A program made the position numbers and the translations under genes. From NCBI GenBank assembly GCA_024867545.1, contig JANFNE010000011.1:248001-312000 (forward strand): a stretch of DNA of 64,000 nucleotides, read 5' to 3'. This DNA comes from Phytopythium helicoides (lineage: Eukaryota > Oomycota > Peronosporomycetes > Pythiales > Pythiaceae). The number at the start of each line of letters is the position of its first letter. Position 1 is the stretch's first letter. The notes under the pieces were generated by a model. The model was given only the letters and a program-made list of their open reading frames with translations, was not told the DNA's origin and did not search any database. Positions 7,622-56,967 of this stretch are shown here, piece by piece.

Positions 7622-8816
7622 GGATATTTGGTGGACACATCTTGCTGGCAATTTGGAGAAGGGTTTTGCGTTCAGCCGGTTTTCATGTTCAACCTCCATC
7701 GGATTGTCAACATGCACGCTCAAATCCGTATCATACACTGGCGTGTTGCGAGGCAGTGATCCAAAATCGTTTCATACTAGAGACTAAATACTGTTAAAGA
7801 CGTGCCATCACTGCCTTTCTTCACCTCGCACAGCTCCACATCGTTGATCTTGAATGCAGAAAGGAGAGCTGCTCGATTCTCAAACCTGCCAGGATCGAGT
7901 GCAAACCACTCTCTGTCCCTTGTCGACTGTAAGTCTTTCTGGTACAGTACGAGCATCTTCCTCATTCGGCTGCACACGGCCACTGCCGAGTAGAAACCCC
8001 CTCCTTTTGGCTATGACTACAAGTGCGGCAGCTGCAATCTGTCTTGCTCAATGATGGAACGAATCAAGCCTACCAACCAGGGCGAAGCTAACTCGCTGAC
8101 TCGAAGACGTCGGTCAGACCATGACGGACGGCATGCGTCTGCATGGCATGGGCAAGTTTTTACACATCGGCAATGAGTGTAATAAATGGCCTCAATACTA
8201 AGACGTCGAACCGATGGTGAGTGGTGGTTTATTGCTGGGTTCCTCGACGCCTGGCTCGGCAAGTCCTTGCGAACTCGAAACACGAGACTCCCATGTGAAC
8301 TTGAGAACGAGGATTTCCTTGCACCCGAGAAACAATTCTACACCAGGGACTTCCGAACCTAGGCCATCGCAACGGGGCCCAAGCTTCTCGGCGAACCACC
8401 TACGTGGCGGGCTCATGCCACGTCAGTCAGCAGGTACACATCTAGAGCAGCTACTTCAACCAGTCACAGTGCCACGATACCTCGTGTAACGGACGGGCAC
8501 GACCATCACTTGCAGACTGCTTGCGAGATCTTTCGGTCTTTTCAAGCCCGATGATTGGCTCACAAATGGTCTCGTAATCATTCTGATTGGCTAGAAATGA
8601 GCAATCACCCCGCGATCCTTCGATTTTTTTTTTTTTCTGGCTACTCGGCATGATGAAGTCCGCGGAAGGATCGCGGGGCGTGGCTGGTTGGCCGTCCATG
8701 GGCGTCGGCCGAAGGCGCGCGGAACTGCCGCCCGCTGGTGCTGGATCCACGTCGTCAGTCGGTCAGTTCCCAAGTTTCCCAGCCCCCGACAAGGTCCCCA
8801 GCCCCCAGCAGCAGCA
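7622..8816. other. Unresolved 1.2-kb stretch, possible minus-strand gene or relic
   Basis: Two minus-strand open segments look protein-like but I cannot join them. Segment 8198-8416 starts with ATG (MSPPRRWF) and segment 7777-7983 ends with a stop after FALDPGRFENRAALLSAF and CEVKKGSDGTSL. The second is preceded by a possible 3' splice site near 7992. Neither resembles a family I know, and stops lie between them in all minus frames. They may be terminal exons of one small gene or remnants. Near the right end two ATTGG (CCAAT) boxes at 8554-8558 and 8586-8590 and a run of 14 T at about 8626 probably belong to the promoter of the next gene. Confidence 0.25.
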
Positions 8817-9719
8817 ATGGCGACCGTCGTGCAAGTGCCCAGCGCCGCCGCGGCTTTCGCGGCCATGGAGAGTCCGCGCGGCGTGGAGCTCGAGGGCCGA
8901 CTCGACCTGTCGCTGGATGCGCTCATCAAGGAGCGACGCAAGGAGGAGAAGGCCAAGAAGCGCGACGCCAAGCAGCTCACCGCGGAGCAGAAGACCAAGG
9001 GCGAGAAGAAGAAGGCCAAGAAGAGCGACAAGAAGCCCAAGGGCGAGCAGAAGAAGCCAAACAGCGAGGTGAAAGCGCAGAAGAAGGCGGAGGTCAAGGC
9101 GCAACAGTCGGCCAAGCGCAGTGCTCTTGTCAACAAGAACCGAGGGCTCCAGGCTGCTCCTGCGACCGCCGGTAAGGCTGCGAAGAAGAACGTCAAAGGT
9201 GCCAAGGCCAAGACTGCTACCAAGAAGACGAGCATCGAGAAAGTCACGGCCATGATGCGGCAGAAGATGAAGGCTAAACGCGATGGAGGACAGCAGCGCG
9301 CTAGTGTCAAGAAAACGAGAGCGGCGCTGGCGGCTCAGCGAGTGGTACGCAACAGCAAGAACAAGGCGGGTTTTAAGGTTGCAGCCCAACAGCAAAAGAA
9401 GCAGCTACCAAAGGCCAAGAAGGCAGCTCAGACATCAAGTTCCAAGTCAGCCACATTGCAGCGGTCGGTGGTGCGCGCCGGTAGGAGCAATACCAAGCTT
9501 AAAATCACCATCGCTGGTGGCAAGGGCAAGAGGGCAAACGTTTTCAAGACCGAGAGGCGGCGACAGGCTACGAAGCCTATCCTACCTGGCAAGCTTGCAG
9601 CCAAGAAGGCGCAGCTGACGAAGATCACCAAGAAGACCAAGACCCGAAAGCACCAGGCGACGAAGGCGAATATTGTTGTGCGCCAGCCGTTTGCGTCGCG
9701 CAAGAAGAAGAACAACTAA
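8817..9719 (+). CDS. Lys/Ala-rich basic protein with a UAP56-binding-like motif
   Basis: Single exon, 300 residues from the ATG at 8817; an in-frame extension to 8688 has no better start. Residues 1-25 are hydrophobic and Ala-rich. About residues 30-40 read RLDLSLDALIKERRK, which resembles the UAP56-binding motif of mRNA export adaptors (ALY/REF, UIF). The rest is a long KKxK/AKK tail, like nucleic-acid-binding tails, with an RGG-poor C-terminus ending in SRKKKNN. An mRNA export adaptor of the TREX pathway is the best idea. A globular-domain-less linker histone or ribosome biogenesis factor are alternatives, because composition alone is not specific. Two CCAAT boxes lie 230-260 bp upstream. 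Confidence 0.6.
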   Translation: MATVVQVPSAAAAFAAMESPRGVELEGRLDLSLDALIKERRKEEKAKKRDAKQLTAEQKTKGEKKKAKKSDKKPKGEQKKPNSEVKAQKKAEVKAQQSAKRSALVNKNRGLQAAPATAGKAAKKNVKGAKAKTATKKTSIEKVTAMMRQKMKAKRDGGQQRASVKKTRAALAAQRVVRNSKNKAGFKVAAQQQKKQLPKAKKAAQTSSSKSATLQRSVVRAGRSNTKLKITIAGGKGKRANVFKTERRRQATKPILPGKLAAKKAQLTKITKKTKTRKHQATKANIVVRQPFASRKKKNN

Positions 9720-9916
9720 GGCACGTCTCTTGATCATTGAGCTCTGCAATTCAGCATGTAGCGTGTACTGTACGAAATAGCCAACGAATCACCCATCCAG
9801 CATCGGTGATCAACAAACTCATGCTTGCAGCTCGTTTTGTAATGATCTGAAGACCATTTTTGTGAATCCTCTATTGTGGTTGTGGAGCACATGCGTACTC
9901 TCCAAGTCGAAGACAT

Positions 9917-12181
9917 CTATGGACTCGACCCCTTGCTCAGGCGGCGGAGCACAGTCTCCTTGCCAAGCAGCTGGATTGTGTCGCCGAGACCAGCACCTAC
10001 TTCCATTCCGGTCAAGTAGTAGCGAATCGGCATCAGCACCCTGACCACACTCTGTTAGCAACGCCAATATTGTAGTTTGACTCGCCAAGACCAACGTACT
10101 TCTTCAAGCCGAGCTTCCGCTGCTTTGCCACCTCCTTGATACTCTTCGTGATAGTGTCCTGCATTGGTGGCAACCAGTAATATTAGCGGATACGGGTGTA
10201 CACTGGTCGGAATAAACCTCCTGCTTACCGGAGAAAACTCTTCACCAGAAAGCTCGCGCAGCTTTTCACTGACATCCTGGACGATCTCAGCTGAACAGAT
10301 ATGACATCCATCAGGATATCTCCACATTCACAATTCCACGTCGTTGCGTACCAGTTGAGGCGTCGATGTACTTTTCACGCATAGCCACAGCTTGTTCGCC
10401 ATCAAAGTTGGGCGTCGTGAAGAATGGTACACACAGCGGGCCGAATTCTGGAAGGGCACTCACGCGCTCCTGTACGTACGACCGTGTGGTGTTAGCAGCA
10501 GACACTCGACATCTCGGGATTCTTTCGTTCGTACCTTCATCAAGTCCATAGCGTTCCAAATGTAGTCGACACCGAACTGAGCGATCAGTTCGTCGGTACT
10601 TGATGGCAACTTTGCAGCAGTTAGTGCGTCGGAGATGAAGGGCAGTGTGTTTCGAACAAAGGAGTTCTTGTGGTCATCTGTTGCGCTTTCTGGGGCAAAC
10701 AGCGCGCGCACATGACGCGAGTTGATCCAGCGTAGGCGCTCTACGTTGACGACGGAACCTGCCTTGTTGACGTTCTCGATCGAGAACTGAACGTTTTCAT
10801 AAGTCGGAATGTCCTTACCCCCAGCGCAACCAACAAACTTACATTCTGCTCGAGCTCGTTGAGTTGGAAAATCTCCTGATTGTTGCCACCAGCCGGGTTC
10901 CATCCCAGCAAAGCAACAAAGTTGACGAGACCGCTTGGCAGAAAACCCTTATCCTGTTTGACCAGCAAATTATGGTTACCGGGTGCATTCTACCAATCGC
11001 TTCGAAGACCAACAATCACGAACCCGGAAGTCTTCGACGGCGACATCGCCTTGACGCTTTGAGAGCTTAGAGCGATCTTCGTTTAGCAGCAATCCGAGGT
11101 GCGCAAACTGGAACAAGGCGAAGATATTCGATCAGCATGAGTTGGATGCGGAGAGTGAATTGCAAAAGCACATACGGTTGGAGCCTCAAAGCCAAGGGCC
11201 TTATAAAGGATCACGTGTTTGGGAGTTGACGGTAGCCACTCTTCGCCACGGATCACATGCGTAATCTTCATTGCATGATCGTCCACCACGTTTGCTAGGT
11301 GGTAAGTCGGATACCCGTCACTCTTCATCAGCACTTGATCATCGATTCCCGCATGCTCAAACTGAACGTATCCACGCAGTAAATCCTTGACCACAGTCTT
11401 GCCTTCCGGAATCTTCAGACGGATAGTGTGCGGATCGCCACGTGCGACACGCTCAGCCACTTCCTTCTCGTCGAGTCCGAGGCAGGCTCGGTCGTACATC
11501 GTAGGCTCGCCGTGGCGAGTCTGGGATGCGCGCAGATTCTGCAGGCGCTCGGGCGTACAGAAGCACCGATACGCGTGACCACACTTTTTGCAAGCAAACA
11601 ATGAATCGTCTACGTCGGGTAGATTGCAATCAGCTTGGAACTCACCTCAACCAGTCGCTCAGCGTGCTCTCGGTAGATCGGAAGCCGCTGCGACTGAATG
11701 TAAGGTCCGTATGGTCCTCCGACATTCGGTCCTGCGCATATAAAATGTAACTAAACGCTCAGATGGCCACTCCTCACAGCAAGCTCGAACCTTCGTCCTC
11801 ATGGACTCCGCACCACGTGAGCGCATTCATGAGCGCCTCGAGCGATCCCTCGACCTGCCGTGTCTGTGCGAACATCAGCGCCACTGTCAGCTGTCTCCTC
11901 CTCCTCCTCCATCCCCTCCGTTCCTCTCTGACCTTGTCCGTGTCCTCAATACGCAGGATGAACTCCCCGCCGACGCTCTTGGCGAACAGATAGTTGAACA
12001 GCGCCGTCCGCAACCCGCCGAGGTGCAAGAAGCCCGTGGGACTCGGCGCGTAGCGCACGCGCACGCTCTTAGCCACGTCACCAGCCACTGAGGAGCTGCA
12101 CGAGCGCCATGACGTGAGCCGTGAGCCTCTGGCCTTGGCGAGCGCCGCGCTGGAGCGGCCGAGACGGAGCAGCGCCGCCAT
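9917..12181 (-). CDS. EARS2: Glutamyl-tRNA synthetase, bacterial/mitochondrial type
   Basis: A class I synthetase that charges tRNA-Glu, probably in mitochondria. The start at 12181 gives a basic, Ser/Arg-rich leader of about 35 residues fitting a mitochondrial presequence. It is followed by [18 protein letters not shown], which holds the HIGH-type motif as HLGG, and RIEDTDK. Later exons carry [14 protein letters not shown], the [14 protein letters not shown] zinc-like region, [14 protein letters not shown], and KLSKRQGD, which is the KMSKS equivalent (about 11050). The C-terminal exon ends at TAG 9917 after MPIRYYLTG. About nine introns of 50-90 nt. Organelle targeting is inferred from the leader and the bacterial sequence type; I see no cytosolic-type extensions. 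Two CCAAT boxes (12249 and 12279) lie upstream of the start. Confidence 0.9.
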
Positions 12182-12306: not shown

Positions 12307-15240
12307 TTAGCCAATCCGCCGCAGCGCCTTGCTGCGCACCACTGGCGCCGGCGTGATCTGCGGGTACATGGCCGAGATGGCGCTCTTGATGCGCGGGTCG
12401 GTCTCCGGCGAGTCCTCGAGGATCTGCAGCAGGTTGTGGAAGTAGCTGAGCAGTGCTTGGTTGCGCGCTTTGGTCTGGTCGCTGCCCATGGCCGCGGTCT
12501 CCACCGCCAGCAGCACGTCCGCCACGGACAGAGGGCTCGCGTTATCCTGCGCCACGATGCGGTGCAGCGCCGGGAAGAGCGCGGCCAGCACGGCGCCCTT
12601 GCGGATCTCCATGATGACAGCGTCGAAGTCTACCAGGCCCCTTCCCAGGCAGCTGAAGTCCATGTTGGGCTCAGTGCAGTCCTCGTAGCCCTCCTCCTCG
12701 ATGAACTGCGGATACGCGCTTGGCGGGGGGAACAGCGCGTTGTTCTCGCCATCCGACTGGATCACGCGGGCGAGGACATTGAGAGCTCGAAGCTGCGTCT
12801 CGCGGGGCAAGTATGGGGCCTTGTATGGCGCCTCACCGGCTTTGTGGTGAGCGTGGGTCACGTTGGCGCCGCCCAGCATCGGGCCGACAATCGCGACCGA
12901 CCGATTGACTGATCTAAGCAACATGCTCTCACGACGCCACAGGACGTATGCCGGAGCGTCGTCCGGGATCTTGTCGAGGACCCACGTCGAGTTGCGAGTT
13001 TGCTCGACGAATACCAGGTGGTCCTCGGCGTAGTCAATTGGGTCTGCTGACAGATCGTACCGCTGGCTGTATGGATTCAGCATCATGTCCACAGATTCGT
13101 CGGTAAGGAACAGTGGCGCCGCCTGAGCAAGCGCTGAAAGCCCTGCACTCTTTTCACCGGGAATCTCATCGGGAACCACGGAGTAGCCGTACGCAATAGC
13201 TGCATAGTCATAAGAACCGATTGCCGTCGTGAAAAATTCGTGCGTCGCGACATCTGTGGCTGACAGGTCCGAGTAAATGTTGGCAGGAGTGTAGTCCATA
13301 ACGGATGATGTCACACCGTTCTTCTTGACGAATGCTGCATCGTTGAGCTGTTCGCGTGTGTACGCTGTTGATGCCGCAAAGTTGTGACGAAGACCCAGCG
13401 TGTGGCCAACTTCGTGCATGACGACATCGGTGAAGTGGTCTGCAACAATCGACTCTGGGACGTAGCCAGCAGAGTTTCCAGAGAGGAGTAACATTCCGAT
13501 CTTGAATCGGTCAATTTCATGTGAGTCGTCGTGTGCATATCCACACTGGAAATGCTGTCCGGGAGAACTCCGCAATGGTTTCGGTGTCGATGCTCGCTGC
13601 GAAGTGACTCGGTCTTTAACGATGTCATCGCTGGCTGCAGCACCATCCCGAGCATAATGAGTTTTACGCTGAGGGCCCTGCTCGGGCGGCGGGTTGACTG
13701 GCGAAAACACATCAAAGTCCGACATCGCCGCGTTGAAAAACCCGTACTCAAATATGATGTCGCTGTGGAGAATCTCGCCGGAGCGAGGGTCGTGCACATG
13801 TGGACCCAGCGCGTAAGTGGATCCCGAAATCATAACCGAGATACTGTTGTATCTCAAGTCTCCAAGCCTGTAGTCCTCTGGCCAGTCGGCATCGCCAGGC
13901 AAAACAGCTTTGATGGCGTCGACGAAGCCAAGGTTCTCGAATGCTGGCTGCCAGGCATTCACACCAGCTGCAAATGCCGCTCTCCAACGCTCGGGGACTG
14001 ACGGATCGATATAGTACTTGATTGGCTCCTTGACCGTTCCAGTCGCAGAATCAACCTCAAGGCGACGTCTCTTCACAATCTTCACGCGAGGGTTGTAGTT
14101 GTGGAACCCTTCGTTGTTGCCGCTAGCTTTGTCCGTCTCCGCCATACCATAGCGTGTGTATTGAATACTAAAGAAGCCAACACGATCATCGGCCACACGC
14201 TGGGGCATAATTTGCTCAGGAAGAAGTCCAATCGCATAATTCACCAGAATCACGCCGAACATTGTGGTTTCGTACTCAACTTGGAACATGGAGTTGCGAG
14301 GGTAACTCGCCGAAGCGCTTGCGATCGGAGTGTAGTCCGACGCAAGGGCTAAGATTGATGAGACATAGAATCCATTGCTGAAGAATGGATCCGACGGGAT
14401 AAAGTAGGATTCATCAGTCTCCATGTAGATAGGAACTTTCGCCACGTGCCCTGGCCACTGGCTATCCTCAAACATGGTGCGCAACTCATCAGATGCTTCA
14501 CCGAGCTGTCCATAAAGATAGTCTTGGACAAGTACGAGGAAGTTACTGCCGTCACTCGGGAGTTCAAAGTGGAAGACGTTGTCGGATGTCTCCAGCAAAA
14601 TCGAACCTCTCTCAAGGCCAACCACTTGCGGTGCTGAGTGTCGAGCAACTGTAGGATAGACAACGAATGATGCGTTCCACACCGTCTTGCTCAGCTCGAA
14701 GACGGAAGAGCCACCATCAATGCGTTGCTGAAGCTTCAGAAAGTCGGGTCCACTACTTTCGGTATCAGACGAATCCAAGTCGAGCTCGCTGATATCAAGC
14801 GTTGTCGATGACGCAACTGCTCCATCTGATCCAGTTCCGCCGTACGCTCTACCTCCTTCAAAGCTGCTTGCTTCAACAGAAGTAGTCTTCCCGGGGCTTG
14901 AGTTGACATAATACATCCGGGTGCACGCAACGCTGACACCAACAAGAGCCAGGGCGGACATGAGAACAGTCAGGATCTTCGAGCGCTTGCCTCGAACACT
15001 CGGCCCATTTATCCGACGAACGTGGGGTGTGACAACGGCTGTGATGTGTGGTGAGTTGCCCATTAAAATGCTCAAAGGTGGTGGTGCACCTGAGCGCTCA
15101 GATGGGGGCGTTCGAATGGTAGAGTCGGTGGCCATATCGCCCATTTGAATGGCGTGATCACCTTCTCCTAGTCTCTCCACATTGTCGAGGTCTTCTTCCT
15201 CTTCCATCCGGACGTGTGGTACTCCATTGAAATCCGCCAT
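12307..15240 (-). CDS. Membrane-anchored Met-zincin metalloprotease
   Basis: Intronless, 977 residues from ATG 15240. An acidic cytosolic head is followed by one hydrophobic segment (about residues 89-107) and no clear cleavage site, so a type II membrane protein with its catalytic part outside or in the lumen is likely. The zinc site is HEVGHTLGLRH (first His about residue 609), the HExxHxxGxxH of metzincins, and the Met-turn is SSVMDYTP about 55 residues later. The long region before the site and the lack of propeptide cysteine-switch or hemopexin repeats suit the Met-zincin (DUF4953/DUF5117) family common in bacteria rather than matrixins. Lack of introns amid intron-rich neighbours and bacterial-type homology suggest ancient transfer; that is inference. 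Substrate unknown. Confidence 0.85.
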   Translation of the reverse strand: MADFNGVPHVRMEEEEDLDNVERLGEGDHAIQMGDMATDSTIRTPPSERSGAPPPLSILMGNSPHITAVVTPHVRRINGPSVRGKRSKILTVLMSALALVGVSVACTRMYYVNSSPGKTTSVEASSFEGGRAYGGTGSDGAVASSTTLDISELDLDSSDTESSGPDFLKLQQRIDGGSSVFELSKTVWNASFVVYPTVARHSAPQVVGLERGSILLETSDNVFHFELPSDGSNFLVLVQDYLYGQLGEASDELRTMFEDSQWPGHVAKVPIYMETDESYFIPSDPFFSNGFYVSSILALASDYTPIASASASYPRNSMFQVEYETTMFGVILVNYAIGLLPEQIMPQRVADDRVGFFSIQYTRYGMAETDKASGNNEGFHNYNPRVKIVKRRRLEVDSATGTVKEPIKYYIDPSVPERWRAAFAAGVNAWQPAFENLGFVDAIKAVLPGDADWPEDYRLGDLRYNSISVMISGSTYALGPHVHDPRSGEILHSDIIFEYGFFNAAMSDFDVFSPVNPPPEQGPQRKTHYARDGAAASDDIVKDRVTSQRASTPKPLRSSPGQHFQCGYAHDDSHEIDRFKIGMLLLSGNSAGYVPESIVADHFTDVVMHEVGHTLGLRHNFAASTAYTREQLNDAAFVKKNGVTSSVMDYTPANIYSDLSATDVATHEFFTTAIGSYDYAAIAYGYSVVPDEIPGEKSAGLSALAQAAPLFLTDESVDMMLNPYSQRYDLSADPIDYAEDHLVFVEQTRNSTWVLDKIPDDAPAYVLWRRESMLLRSVNRSVAIVGPMLGGANVTHAHHKAGEAPYKAPYLPRETQLRALNVLARVIQSDGENNALFPPPSAYPQFIEEEGYEDCTEPNMDFSCLGRGLVDFDAVIMEIRKGAVLAALFPALHRIVAQDNASPLSVADVLLAVETAAMGSDQTKARNQALLSYFHNLLQILEDSPETDPRIKSAISAMYPQITPAPVVRSKALRRIG

Positions 15241-15543
15241 GTTGATCAAGCAAGGAAGCGAAGATCAGAGAACTTGGCTGCCTCTTGCGAGATGAAGGCA
15301 CCAGTATCGCTGGAAGTGGGGAGTAGCTCGCAGATCGCGAGATGATGCTTATGATACCAGGCTCGCAGAAGCTGTCACATGCCTTCTCGAGCTCGTTTCG
15401 GAACCGATCCATTCCAAGACATGCAGGAAGATCGGAGGGGAAACCAGTTGCACCCAACGCGAACGAAACGGATGGGATGATGCACGCCACCTTCAGAACC
15501 ACGCAGCTCACCGATGGTTTCACCTTGCATCTCCATTGCTAAT
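15241..15543. other. Gap between PSTK stop and metalloprotease start
   Basis: These 303 bases probably hold the 3' end of PSTK and the promoter and leader of the metalloprotease, both on the minus strand. The short ORFs crossing it show no recognisable protein. I see no repeat or RNA gene. Confidence 0.4.
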
Positions 15544-49901: not shown

Positions 49902-51761
49902 TTACGGCGTGGCCGAGTCCGCAAGGGCCTTAATGGTGTCAAACGACGACGCAACCGCAGCCTTGAACTTAGCCGCATCCGTGAGCCCGCTGTCCTTGAA
50001 GTTGGTCAGGCTTACGTTGATCGTCTTGCTGTGCAGCAGGTAGCCAACACCGTAGCCGTGCGGCACAACAGCGCCGAAGGAGAAGTACTCGAGGAATGGC
50101 GTTGTCACGTTACTCGAAGAGATCTGGAAGTTCGTCGATGCCGCGCGCTCCGGGCTCGTGAGGAAGTCGCTAGAAATGCCGTTGTCATTCGCAATTGACG
50201 AGAGCGCAAAAAGGTGGCGGTCAACACCCAGACCCTTCTGAGCCATCTTAGCCATTTCGACGTGGCGGTTCACAGCCTTGACAAGCAATTCACGCTGGGT
50301 TGCGACCGACTGGCCCGACTTGACCGACTCAACGAACGCTGCAGACGCTGGAGTAGCCGACCGGATCGTCTCCGTGCGACCATGGTGGAAGTTACGGGTG
50401 GAGCACGACTCGTACACAGCGGGGACCTTGCCGTGGAGCTGCGAGAAGGCGAGCTGGAAGGCCATCTGCGCAACACCATCGGGGCTGAGCTTCCACTCCT
50501 TGCAGTTGTTCTTGGCAAAGTTCGTGTACTTGAGGAAGTCCATCTTGAGGTTTCCTGAGAAAGCAGCGTAGTGCTCCTCAGCCTTCTTGATATCCTCCAC
50601 GAGATTGTTCGACAGCTTCCAGCTGAGCTTGACTGGTTTGGTAGCATTCGTGTACTCGGGGAGCTCCTTGAGCGGCGCAAAACCCGACGGCGTACCACGA
50701 GTGTCGTGCCAGACCTCATGCAGCCAGCGGTTCCATGCCGTGCCGTCCGAGAACGAGTGCTCAAAGTTGACCGTCAGGTGTCCATCGCCGTGCACCGCAA
50801 GCTGCACCTTGTCGAACCAGCGGTTCTTGCCGTTGCCATGGAGCGAGATCTCCATGCGCTCCTTTGTCTCGGTGGGAGAACGCTCGTCAAGCACGAGGAC
50901 AAACAGCGCCGAATCAATCACGCCAAGGGACTCGGCATTGACTGGGTGGTGAGCGATCAGGTCCTCGCGGATGCGAGCCCACGTGTCGCGATTCTCCGCC
51001 GTCAGCGTCGAAATGTCGAGGTCGTCGTGGTCGCCCTTGGCCGACGAGTTGAGGATCTCGTTGAGTTGTCCCTCTAGCGCCGCCTGCGAGAGCAGCTGCT
51101 TGCCGTCGGGGCTGAGCACATTGAGCTGGTAGAACTGGTTGCCGCGCATGACGACGATGTGCGACGAACGCGGGTGCGACTCGAGCACGTCCTGCTCGGG
51201 CTTGGGGATCTTGGCCGTCCCAAACTGGCGCGCGAAGCCGAACATGCACTGGTTCTTGTCCTGCTCGAGCTCGCTGTCCTTGACCTTCTGCCACCACTTG
51301 AGCATGGAGCGCACGAAAGCTGCGCTCCGCGGCACCTGGCCCTTGAGGTTTCCCTCCGTCTCGTCCAGCAGTCCGTAGCTGGGGTTGACGTTGATGGGCG
51401 ACTCGTAGCGGCCGCCCAGGTACATCTTGTCCCAGTCGGCCTCAATGTAGCTGAACGGGTAGGCCCTGCCCGTGGCCTGCACGAGCTCGCGCTTGAGCAG
51501 CAGCTCCTGCAGCTTGCGGCCCTCTGCGTCCTGGAAGCCGCGCGCCAGCTCGGCGTGCGCGGCCCACTCCTTCTCGCCCAGCAGCGGGCGCATCGACTCG
51601 AGGTAGCGCTCCACCGTGTCCTCGAGCTGCGGCACGGGCAGCCGCGGCAGGTTGAACTCGTTGGTCGCCAGCATACGCTGGAACCAGCCGGGCTGCGCCT
51701 GGGACGACGCCGCGCGCGCGCCGGAGCGCGCCAGCAGCGAGCGAGGGACCTGCACGCGCAT
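49902..51761 (-). CDS. CPT2: Mitochondrial carnitine O-acyltransferase (CPT2-like)
   Basis: Carnitine palmitoyltransferase 2 returns long-chain acyl groups from carnitine to CoA inside mitochondria for beta-oxidation. Intronless, 619 residues from ATG 51761, which starts a basic, Ser-rich presequence (MRVQVPRSLLARSGARA). The catalytic His is in VNFEHSFSDG (His about 335). The STS-like motif is YESCSTRNFHHGRTETIR (about 450-467), as in CPT2. No transmembrane pair, so it is not CPT1. Carnitine octanoyl- or acetyltransferase remain possible; the CPT2-like segments and mitochondrial leader favour CPT2. The ORF continues to 52034 upstream but without conserved sequence. Confidence 0.88.
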   Translation of the reverse strand: MRVQVPRSLLARSGARAASSQAQPGWFQRMLATNEFNLPRLPVPQLEDTVERYLESMRPLLGEKEWAAHAELARGFQDAEGRKLQELLLKRELVQATGRAYPFSYIEADWDKMYLGGRYESPINVNPSYGLLDETEGNLKGQVPRSAAFVRSMLKWWQKVKDSELEQDKNQCMFGFARQFGTAKIPKPEQDVLESHPRSSHIVVMRGNQFYQLNVLSPDGKQLLSQAALEGQLNEILNSSAKGDHDDLDISTLTAENRDTWARIREDLIAHHPVNAESLGVIDSALFVLVLDERSPTETKERMEISLHGNGKNRWFDKVQLAVHGDGHLTVNFEHSFSDGTAWNRWLHEVWHDTRGTPSGFAPLKELPEYTNATKPVKLSWKLSNNLVEDIKKAEEHYAAFSGNLKMDFLKYTNFAKNNCKEWKLSPDGVAQMAFQLAFSQLHGKVPAVYESCSTRNFHHGRTETIRSATPASAAFVESVKSGQSVATQRELLVKAVNRHVEMAKMAQKGLGVDRHLFALSSIANDNGISSDFLTSPERAASTNFQISSSNVTTPFLEYFSFGAVVPHGYGVGYLLHSKTINVSLTNFKDSGLTDAAKFKAAVASSFDTIKALADSATP

Positions 51762-52046
51762 GTGGACGGCTGGAGGAGCGAGCGAGGGCGGCGGCGGGAG
51801 CGGTCGCCGCAAGATTCGCGAGTGACGCCCATGTGGCGACGGAAGGTGTTGACGTGTAAGCGAGGTTTTTTTGAGAAAAACCTCTACTTCAACTTGGTTT
51901 GCGTGTCCGAGGATCGCAAGGGCGTTGATGAGACGCGGGTATAGTGGAGCCAAGTGAGTGGCTTGCGCTTCGCCTTGGTGGCATTGCGGAATTGGCGAAG
52001 CGTGTGATGCCGTGCCTGCCTGTGAGGGACGCAATCTGGAATGGCG

Positions 52047-54216: not shown

Positions 54217-56967
54217 ATGCAGCACTTGCGCCGCCACTTTGAATCCGGCGACGAGCCAGCCACTGCTCCTGCTGCCTCCAGCAGCTCCAGTAGCAGCAGC
54301 TCGAGCGCCAGCATGGCGCTGTGGGGCACGCTCAAGCACCGCATGGGCGGCGGCGGCAGCGCGGCCGTCGACTCGGACGAGTTCATCGACGAGTTCTTTG
54401 GAAAGACGCCCGAGGACCCGCGCTGGGCGCTGGCCGCCGTGCAGCAGCGCGCCGAGGCGTTCGTGGCCACGCAGCTGGCCGACCCGGGGTGCAGGGGCGT
54501 CGCGCTCGTGACGTCGGGCGCCACTATCGTGCCGCTGGACCATGAGGCCGGCACGTTCATCGACATGGCCACCAAGTTCGAGGAGCAGCAGGGCCCCGCC
54601 AGCGCAGAGTACCTGCTGCAGCTCGGCTACGCCGTCATCTTCCTCCACAGAGAGGACTCGCTGCAGCCTTTCACGCGCCACTTCCAAAAGTATATCCAGA
54701 ACGGAGCCTTCATGGGCATGTTCGCACTGCGCGACGCAGGGCTCGTGCTCGACGGCGTCGACTTCTCGCAGCAGCTGCACTTCCAGAACACCGTCGCCAT
54801 GTACAACGAGTGCAAGGACCGACTGCTATCCGTCAGCTTCGCCTCCGTGCAGCAGTACCTCATGCTCGTGCGCCTCACGGCACAGGCCGTCAGCGCCGCC
54901 AAGAACAGAGGCATGGTGCTGCTTGCTGCCACGCTCATGGATTTTTACGTTCCTCTGCCGCCGCGCGAAGACGACAGCGAAAGCGTGGGGAAGGACGGAA
55001 AGAGTGATGGGCACCATCACCGACGGCACCACCACCACAAGAAGACCAAGGCCAAGAAGAAGCGCGATGACTACTCGCTCAACTTTGTGCGCGTGCCCAA
55101 CATGATCCGCAAGATCCGCAAGGACTGGTGCCCGAAAGCGTTCCTTGTCACGTGCAAGCATCAACTCACCGATGGCGAGACGATTGAGCGGGCCCGCGAC
55201 GACCTCGAGAAGTGGGGTGTTGATGTTGTTGCAGGCTCATACCACCCGCGCGAGCTCCTGCTTCTCTCGGAGCAAGAAGACAAGATTGTGACTTGTCCCG
55301 AGGAGGAGGATCTGAACGACTCTTTTGCGTCGGCTATTGCCGAGATGCACCGCAACTTCCGCAAGACGCGCGAGATTCTGGCCCGCGGAAAGCAATTGCT
55401 GCTGCTCTCGGCCAAGTTTGCGATGCAGAAGGAGACCGATTTGATCAACGAAGACGCTGACGGCAACAAGAATGTCAAGTTCGGCCTCGGCGTCAAGATC
55501 TGTGCTGATCGTCGTGAAGGGCAGCAGGCGCCTGTGTATGAGCTGAAGGCGATCTTCAAGAACAAGACACACTGTGCGCGGGCTCACGTGTGGGAAGGCA
55601 CGGTGCAGCAGGCTTCTGGCACCGATACCGAGGCGGCCACAACAGGATCAGATGTGGTTGTTGCATTCAGTCCCGCCGGAAACCCCGAGACGATCCGCGA
55701 TGTTTGGGGCGACTTTTGGTCCGGTTGGGCCGAGCAGGAGCTTGACGAGCTCAAGTCCGAGCTGAAGGGGATCTCGTTCTCATCGGCTTTGAACGTAGCT
55801 ATGTCTTCGATCTCTGGTAATTACACCCCGGCATCCCAGCTGATCCAGTTCATGTGGAGCAAGATTGGCCACGCTTGGTCGGACGGCGAGCAGACGCGCA
55901 TTCGTCAGAGTATCCAGAACATGATTGCGGTTGGTCTGGATCGCGGTCTGATTGAGCCGCCTGGAATCTCACTGCTCGAGAAGCTTATGCGTCGTGCACG
56001 CATCCAGCGCTTTGACTCGCTTGCACTCGACCATCCACTGGTGCCAGTGCATCCTCAGACTCATACGAGGCGGAGGGTGCGAGGTGATAGCGACTCAGAC
56101 TCGAGCTCGAGTGAGTCCAATCCGATCCGTCTCAGCAAGGCGCGGGTTGTTCGTGTTCACCGAGCAATCAACAGTTATTTGCAAGATATGATTGGCGATG
56201 GTCTGTTGGACACGATTTTGAAGTATGTGGAGCGCGGTGTTCCAGTTCACGTGACGGGTTACAGCATGGGTGGCATGCTTGGCCAGCTGCTGATGCTATA
56301 TATTGGCGATCACGCACGTATGAACGGCTGGGATGCGAGCAAGGTCAACTTTGTGGGCTTTGGATCCCCTCGTGTGGGTGACATTGGCTTTGCAGCGCGT
56401 CTGCGGCTGCTCTTCGAGCCCGAGCAGATGCTGATTGTCATGCACCCCTCGGATGCAGTCCATGCATTCCCACCAACAGCGGAAGGCTATGCTGACGCTT
56501 GCATCAAGATTTTCCTGAAAGAAAACGGTCTGGGTGTTGGACGTCGCATGCCTTCTCGGTTCTCGTTCCTTCCTGTCACCAAGTCGATTGATCGGGTCTT
56601 TGAACGTGCTCACAAGGACAAGATGGCAGCCGCATCGTCGCCATCGGCTTCGACTTCTGTCTGCGATTTCTGCAAAAGCACGTCACACACCAGTGAACAA
56701 CATCGCTGCCGGTATTGTATCGAGAGAGGATCCCATCGTGGTGCAGACTGTCCGAACCGCAACAAGCCGTGTGGATTGTGCGGTCACGCGAACCACTGCA
56801 CAGGCGAGCATCGGTGCCGAGTGTGCCAGCAGTACGGTCACCGCGGTCGCGAATGCCACGTGCAGCGCGATGTCGGTCTCGCGGAGCTTGTGACGCTGTT
56901 CCGGTACCACCACTTCCTCTACTACAACTCTAATCTCAAACAGTCGGTCGAGTTCACTGCAGTTTAG
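54217..56967 (+). CDS. PPCS: Fusion of phosphopantothenate-cysteine ligase, class-3 lipase-like domain and zinc knuckles
   Basis: One uninterrupted ORF, 916 residues. N-terminal part (about 50-370): PPCS, which joins cysteine to 4'-phosphopantothenate in CoA synthesis; seen are VALVTSGATIVPLD, ASAEYLLQLGYAVIFLHRE, AATLMDFYVPLP and the PKAFLVTCK core, with a His/Lys-rich insert (about 265-290). Middle (about 475-790): class-3 lipase-like, with VVVAF, HVTGYSMGGMLGQL (nucleophile Ser about 683), VGFGSPRVGD and the Asp in HPSDAVHAFPP. The usual GYxH His reads GYADAC, so the triad may be incomplete. C-terminus (816-880): four CCHC-like zinc knuckles; the last, CRVCQQYGHRGREC, is canonical. Intronless. 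Divergent from the preceding gene. The head is Ser-rich. I know of no described protein with this order. Confidence 0.85.
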   Translation: MQHLRRHFESGDEPATAPAASSSSSSSSSSASMALWGTLKHRMGGGGSAAVDSDEFIDEFFGKTPEDPRWALAAVQQRAEAFVATQLADPGCRGVALVTSGATIVPLDHEAGTFIDMATKFEEQQGPASAEYLLQLGYAVIFLHREDSLQPFTRHFQKYIQNGAFMGMFALRDAGLVLDGVDFSQQLHFQNTVAMYNECKDRLLSVSFASVQQYLMLVRLTAQAVSAAKNRGMVLLAATLMDFYVPLPPREDDSESVGKDGKSDGHHHRRHHHHKKTKAKKKRDDYSLNFVRVPNMIRKIRKDWCPKAFLVTCKHQLTDGETIERARDDLEKWGVDVVAGSYHPRELLLLSEQEDKIVTCPEEEDLNDSFASAIAEMHRNFRKTREILARGKQLLLLSAKFAMQKETDLINEDADGNKNVKFGLGVKICADRREGQQAPVYELKAIFKNKTHCARAHVWEGTVQQASGTDTEAATTGSDVVVAFSPAGNPETIRDVWGDFWSGWAEQELDELKSELKGISFSSALNVAMSSISGNYTPASQLIQFMWSKIGHAWSDGEQTRIRQSIQNMIAVGLDRGLIEPPGISLLEKLMRRARIQRFDSLALDHPLVPVHPQTHTRRRVRGDSDSDSSSSESNPIRLSKARVVRVHRAINSYLQDMIGDGLLDTILKYVERGVPVHVTGYSMGGMLGQLLMLYIGDHARMNGWDASKVNFVGFGSPRVGDIGFAARLRLLFEPEQMLIVMHPSDAVHAFPPTAEGYADACIKIFLKENGLGVGRRMPSRFSFLPVTKSIDRVFERAHKDKMAAASSPSASTSVCDFCKSTSHTSEQHRCRYCIERGSHRGADCPNRNKPCGLCGHANHCTGEHRCRVCQQYGHRGRECHVQRDVGLAELVTLFRYHHFLYYNSNLKQSVEFTAV

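Follow-up and report, generated by a model that had tools for sequence, protein, structure and literature searches.

Phosphopantothenate-cysteine ligase (PPCS) of eukaryotes, represented by yeast CAB2 and human PPCS (Pfam DFP), and the class 3 lipases, represented by the lipases of Thermomyces lanuginosus (TLL) and Rhizomucor miehei and by feruloyl esterase A, are the described systems to which the two halves of one oomycete protein are compared here. The protein is encoded on contig JANFNE010000011.1 of Phytopythium helicoides (assembly GCA_024867545.1), within positions 248,001 to 312,000 of the forward strand; this stretch of 64,000 nucleotides is referred to as the window. A PPCS-type domain, a class 3 lipase fold and four zinc-knuckle-like motifs are joined in a single uninterrupted frame of 916 codons, as the first-pass annotation had proposed, and the architecture is kept across oomycetes. 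The product is best read as a soluble (cytosolic) lipase-type hydrolase with an N-terminal pseudoenzyme domain derived from PPCS, of which the activity and the ligand are predicted (probability roughly 0.55).

The plant immune proteins EDS1, PAD4 and SAG101 were compared in their lipase-like part only. Their partner domains differ from those of the fusion protein, and EDS1 is not known to have a PPCS part or zinc knuckles. The triad of TLL is Ser146-His258-Asp201 (PMC8479976), and its His lies near the C-terminus, at residue 258 of 269. According to PMC7794376, the active site of mycobacterial CoaB includes R207, N211 and K293/K294, R207 is critical in the second half-reaction, and a K-X-K-K loop from the opposite protomer contacts the CTP triphosphate. 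We infer that these CoaB residues correspond to the eukaryotic PPCS motifs. Oomycetes contain unusually many novel domain combinations, as stated in PMC3681718, and for this reason the fusion as such is not surprising.

The first protein search yielded 45 homologues with 42-91% identity, 37 of which cover at least 94% of the fusion protein. Unless stated otherwise, rows are those of alignment A2, in which the window protein is joined by 42 homologues (all but P0027, P0044 and P0045) and some rows are gene models with altered ends. Alignment A1 contains 25 of the 45 homologues and A3 eight chosen relatives; A4 further omits P0024, P0026, P0028, P0031, P0034, P0043 and P0046. A deep alignment of nine chosen rows includes the distant relatives P0045, P0047 and P0048. 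The features of the gene, all on the forward strand, are as follows (coordinates within the window).

54217..56967, +, whole open reading frame of 916 residues, unbroken and with no intron in frame
54313, +, Met33, a conserved alternative start; Met occupies this column in 41 of 43 rows
54376..55377, +, predicted inactive PPCS-like domain (residues ~54-387)
54553..54567, +, codons 113-117, the place of the RFxDN active-site Arg (113) and Asn (117); Thr and Met here
54955..55077, +, residues 247-287, the place of the HKIQS loop; His/Lys-rich low-complexity sequence here
55372..56532, +, class 3 lipase fold, residues ~386-772, into which much of the supposed linker falls
55666..55680, +, FSPAG, residues 484-488, at the place of the oxyanion loop; invariant in 43/43 rows
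56257..56274, +, GYSMGG nucleophile elbow with Ser683, equivalent to TLL Ser146; 43/43 rows
56452..56454, +, Asp746, equivalent to the catalytic Asp201 of TLL; 43/43 rows
56494..56496, +, Asp760 at the place of the GYxH His, aligned with TLL His215, which lies outside the triad
56662..56859, +, four zinc-knuckle-like motifs, residues 816-881
56875..56955, +, C-terminal tail, a candidate for the third segment of the triad; contains near-invariant His898 (56908-56910) and Tyr902-Tyr903

Conservation of the PPCS-like and lipase halves

The N-terminal half contains the whole domain fold of PPCS (PF04127, DFP). It matched yeast CAB2 at 1.3e-20 (phmmer against PDB), and the family profile matched CAB2 residues 49-363 at 3.6e-46. 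The window protein itself reaches 16.6 bits with Pfam DFP, below the gathering cut-off of 22; PF04127 is precomputed for 12 of the 45 homologues, so that other members of the family pass the cut-off. The motifs were compared in an alignment that also included CAB2, human PPCS and the genome's own separate PPCS gene. Of the 42 rows with a letter, none retains the RFxDNFS Asn, in whose place stand Val, Ala, Leu, Met or others, and none has the Arg expected four residues earlier; the SGGT Gly is replaced by Ala, Ser or Pro in all 42. No HKIQS-like motif was found in place in the 43 rows, save one KKIS in a lysine-rich tail; the region measures 20-69 residues between its flanking prolines (43 rows). 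Contrary to the earlier proposal that this half makes CoA intermediates, it looks catalytically dead, as judged from these motifs.

A DFP profile search of the whole assembly gave one place above the cut-off, G000:C25:551973-552263, where the frame reads AAAVSDFYIP...THKIQSRAG and the DNFS and HKIQS motifs are intact. This separate PPCS gene was judged by its motifs alone; it appears to contain introns, with a putative splice junction near L001 1031-1114. The search for a second PPCS gene recommended in the first-pass annotation was thus successful, and it rules out the fusion as the sole PPCS of the organism, together with the argument that the fusion is for that reason essential. The same assembly (49 Mb, 100 contigs searched) yielded no further copy of the fusion.

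The lipase half looks alive, again on the evidence of its sequence. The score for Lipase_3 (PF01764), 40.8 bits, exceeds the Pfam gathering cut-off of 22, and the fold is that of the family. Ser683, Asp746 and Asp760 were placed by alignment to TLL, and the first two are also invariant in the 9-row deep alignment with the distant relatives. The catalytic His had been described as apparently lost at GYxH. This is rejected, as the position is that of TLL His215 and the triad His is His258; the change to Asp760 is therefore uninformative about the triad. Residues 370-475 had been taken for a linker, which fails for residues 386-475, as these already belong to the beginning of the lipase fold; a free linker over the whole stretch is rejected. 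The fusion differs from the class 3 lipases named above in its FSPAG oxyanion loop, in Asp760 at the GYxH place, in a 66-residue knuckle block ahead of the C-terminal His segment and in having no signal-like N-terminus; a hydrophobic, signal-like N-terminus was looked for in the fusion protein and not found.

Zinc knuckles and the C-terminal tail

Sequence conservation bears out the four zinc motifs: none of the 16 ligands varies in the nine rows of the deep alignment, and in the 43-row alignment each occurs in 93-100% of rows with a letter. Their spacings are, in order, CX2CX4HX4H, CX2CX5HX4C, CX2CX4HX4H and CX2CX4HX4C. Four conserved motifs thus stand as first described; their designation as uniformly CCHC-like does not, for CCHH and CCHC alternate, the fourth motif alone fits CX2CX4HX4C, the second has X5, and the first and third are CCHH. 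Pfam zf-CCHC (PF00098) applied to the C-terminal piece gave an E value of 0.024 and 15.2 bits, below its gathering cut-off of 20.8.

A multi-knuckle protein is encoded elsewhere in the genome (L004 1-2292; G000:C67:218881-219585), with at least four paired modules, counted by eye, of the kind seen in the fusion. The two proteins share the paired module CxxC-H-H-RCRxC-H-C, and the matched stretches are 40-57% identical. Unlike the fusion, the multi-knuckle protein has no lipase domain in Pfam, and the query matched it through the knuckle stretch alone; its zf-CCHC_6 score is weak (21.3 against 22 bits).

Beyond the knuckles, His898 lies in FRYHHFLYYN and is found in 40 of 41 rows of the larger alignment and in all nine rows of the deep one. 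With the zinc ligands and the neighbouring His881 set aside, it is the only near-invariant His downstream of Asp760. By sequence it is the best candidate for the third member of the triad, and a split triad Ser683-Asp746-His898 is likely. When the model of residues 382-916 was compared with known folds, 10 of the leading 32 lipase/esterase matches ended in the tail, 7 of these at His898; a further 7 ended at the last knuckle (local 497-503) and 15 before the knuckles.

Proposed mechanism and competing explanations

The loss of the PPCS residues and the retention of the lipase Ser and Asp, in all rows, point to a working hydrolase combined with a regulatory or docking domain derived from PPCS. 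The lipase half would act through Ser683, Asp746 and probably His898. On this view the zinc knuckles would separate the Asp segment from the His segment and might serve to place or gate the latter, the last of the catalytic segments. The PPCS half would no longer make phosphopantothenoylcysteine and would be kept as a binding module, most probably for a ligand of the CoA pathway (a nucleotide, phosphopantothenate, CoA or acyl-CoA) or for true PPCS as a dimer partner, and lipid hydrolysis would thereby be tied to CoA supply. Since 34 of 42 rows keep the SDF-motif residue Asp242, some ligand binding by this half is plausible. Acyl-CoA inhibits CoaB, more strongly with longer chains (PMC7794376), and this inhibition makes the sensing of CoA or acyl-CoA a concrete hypothesis.

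Several observations weigh against this hydrolase reading. The usual lipase oxyanion motif is FRG[ST], in place of which FSPAG is found; the motif is not strictly defining. His457, His648, His743 and His749, upstream, are near-invariant too and could serve instead of His898. In two AlphaFold models the confidence score (pLDDT) is below 50 around the Asp746 loop and the C-terminal tail, so that the triad geometry is tentative. The leading fold matches do not end in the tail in 22 of 32 cases, and in the TLL fold rows the alignment stops with His898 opposite TLL 252, six positions ahead of His258. P0048 and P0045, which are possibly incomplete gene models, are without the PPCS part, so that the hydrolase may not need it. 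As to the loss of PPCS function, Asp242 persists as noted, 41 of 43 rows keep Lys314, and the same number have lysines where the HKIQS loop used to be; residual PPCS chemistry in the fusion is nevertheless unlikely, to judge from the motifs.

Best placed among the alternatives, though still improbable, is a wholly non-catalytic protein in which both folds are binding modules, comparable to EDS1/PAD4, where a lipase-like domain forms part of a small-molecule receptor, and in which the knuckles would contact RNA or protein. The invariance of Ser683 and Asp746 in 43/43 rows and in the distant relatives, and the presence of a His candidate, argue for catalysis instead.

The hydrolase reading can be extended, with more doubt, to a specific form. 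The dead PPCS domain would be a built-in sensor or brake that reads the level of CoA or acyl-CoA, or captures true PPCS. The lipase under its control would be intracellular, with a triad completed only by the tail that follows the inserted knuckles; hydrolysis would then depend on the CoA state and on what the knuckles bind. We regard this form as speculative.

Less probable again is that the pseudo-PPCS half dimerises with true PPCS, poisons the dimer and so brakes CoA synthesis, with the lipase half as the input. The CoaB active site is closed by the lysine loop of the opposite protomer (PMC7794376). As the fusion lacks the Arg, the Asn and the HKIQS motif, its pairing with true PPCS could compromise both sites of the resulting heterodimer. 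A precedent is offered by yeast Hal3/Vhs3/Cab3, CoA-pathway paralogues with regulatory or assembly roles (PMC4626798); their place in the pathway is the decarboxylase (PPCDC) step rather than that of PPCS. Against such pairing, the true PPCS and the PPCS half of the fusion are only 33% identical over residues 201-387.

A far weaker case is that of an N-terminal half that still works as PPCS with a shifted active site. The fold, Asp242, Lys314 and the lysines of the old HKIQS region are mostly kept, but the Asn and Arg are lost in 42/42 rows, the domain falls below the Pfam DFP cut-off and an intact PPCS gene lies elsewhere. An assembly or annotation artefact fusing neighbouring genes, including the frameshift that the first-pass annotation had named as a possible refutation, is very unlikely, since order and domains are identical in the 37 of 45 homologues with at least 94% coverage, and a fall in G+C content at third codon positions from 0.83 over the PPCS part of the gene to 0.63 over the lipase part (54388-56964, +) is all that was found in its favour.

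Distribution, surroundings and significance

All homologues with species names in the first protein search are oomycetes, namely Phytophthora, Nothophytophthora, downy mildews, Pythium, Globisporangium, Lagenidium, Saprolegnia, Achlya and Aphanomyces. The fusion architecture, which the first-pass annotation had suggested looking for in other oomycetes, is carried by the Saprolegniales as well, and it is old. Aphanomyces stellatus has two fusion paralogues, P0039 and P0041, of identical architecture. An iterated search added one further piece, P0046 (Peronospora belbahrii), and missed four earlier relatives; a search with the lipase region added P0047 and P0048. The first and iterated searches scored only the candidates sharing most 5-residue words. 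No named relative outside the oomycetes was found in the three protein searches, by methods that need shared 5-residue words and comparable length; the source of P0045 and P0048 may not be an oomycete. In P0047 (945 residues) the PPCS part is more eroded still, with no Pfam DFP match listed at E up to 5. The commonest start among the aligned relatives is Met33 and not Met1 (25 of 43 rows begin there), and by this comparison the true start of the fusion protein may be Met33 at 54313.

Other genes of the window include a carnitine/choline acyltransferase at 49902-52034 (-; Pfam E 6.1e-169), ~2.2 kb upstream of the fusion gene on the opposite strand, which is acyl-CoA-related and may lie there by chance. 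A very lysine-rich open reading frame is found at 8688-9719 (+), with a strong local A-over-T skew of 0.322 at 9001-10000. A Met-zincin protein (DUF4953/DUF5117), of a family associated with bacteria, is encoded at 12307-15249 (-) and has an N-terminal hydrophobic segment, seen by eye.

No published account of the fusion protein was found among the literature matches listed, in a search covering few subscription journals, and none of the papers found linked phosphopantothenate-cysteine ligase, an oomycete and a lipase. Source names of the homologues vary between 'phosphopantothenate-cysteine ligase' (P0005), 'Lipase (class 3)' (P0008) and 'triacylglycerol lipase' (P0015). The name given to P0005 is probably wrong, and the labelling of members as PPCS in databases is an annotation warning. 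If the hydrolase reading is true, the protein would be a pseudoenzyme derived from PPCS and would couple CoA synthesis to lipid hydrolysis directly, by physical linkage. All oomycete orders represented among the search hits retain the fusion, and oomycetes include major pathogens of plants and animals, so that a lineage-specific regulator of lipid and CoA metabolism would be worth testing.
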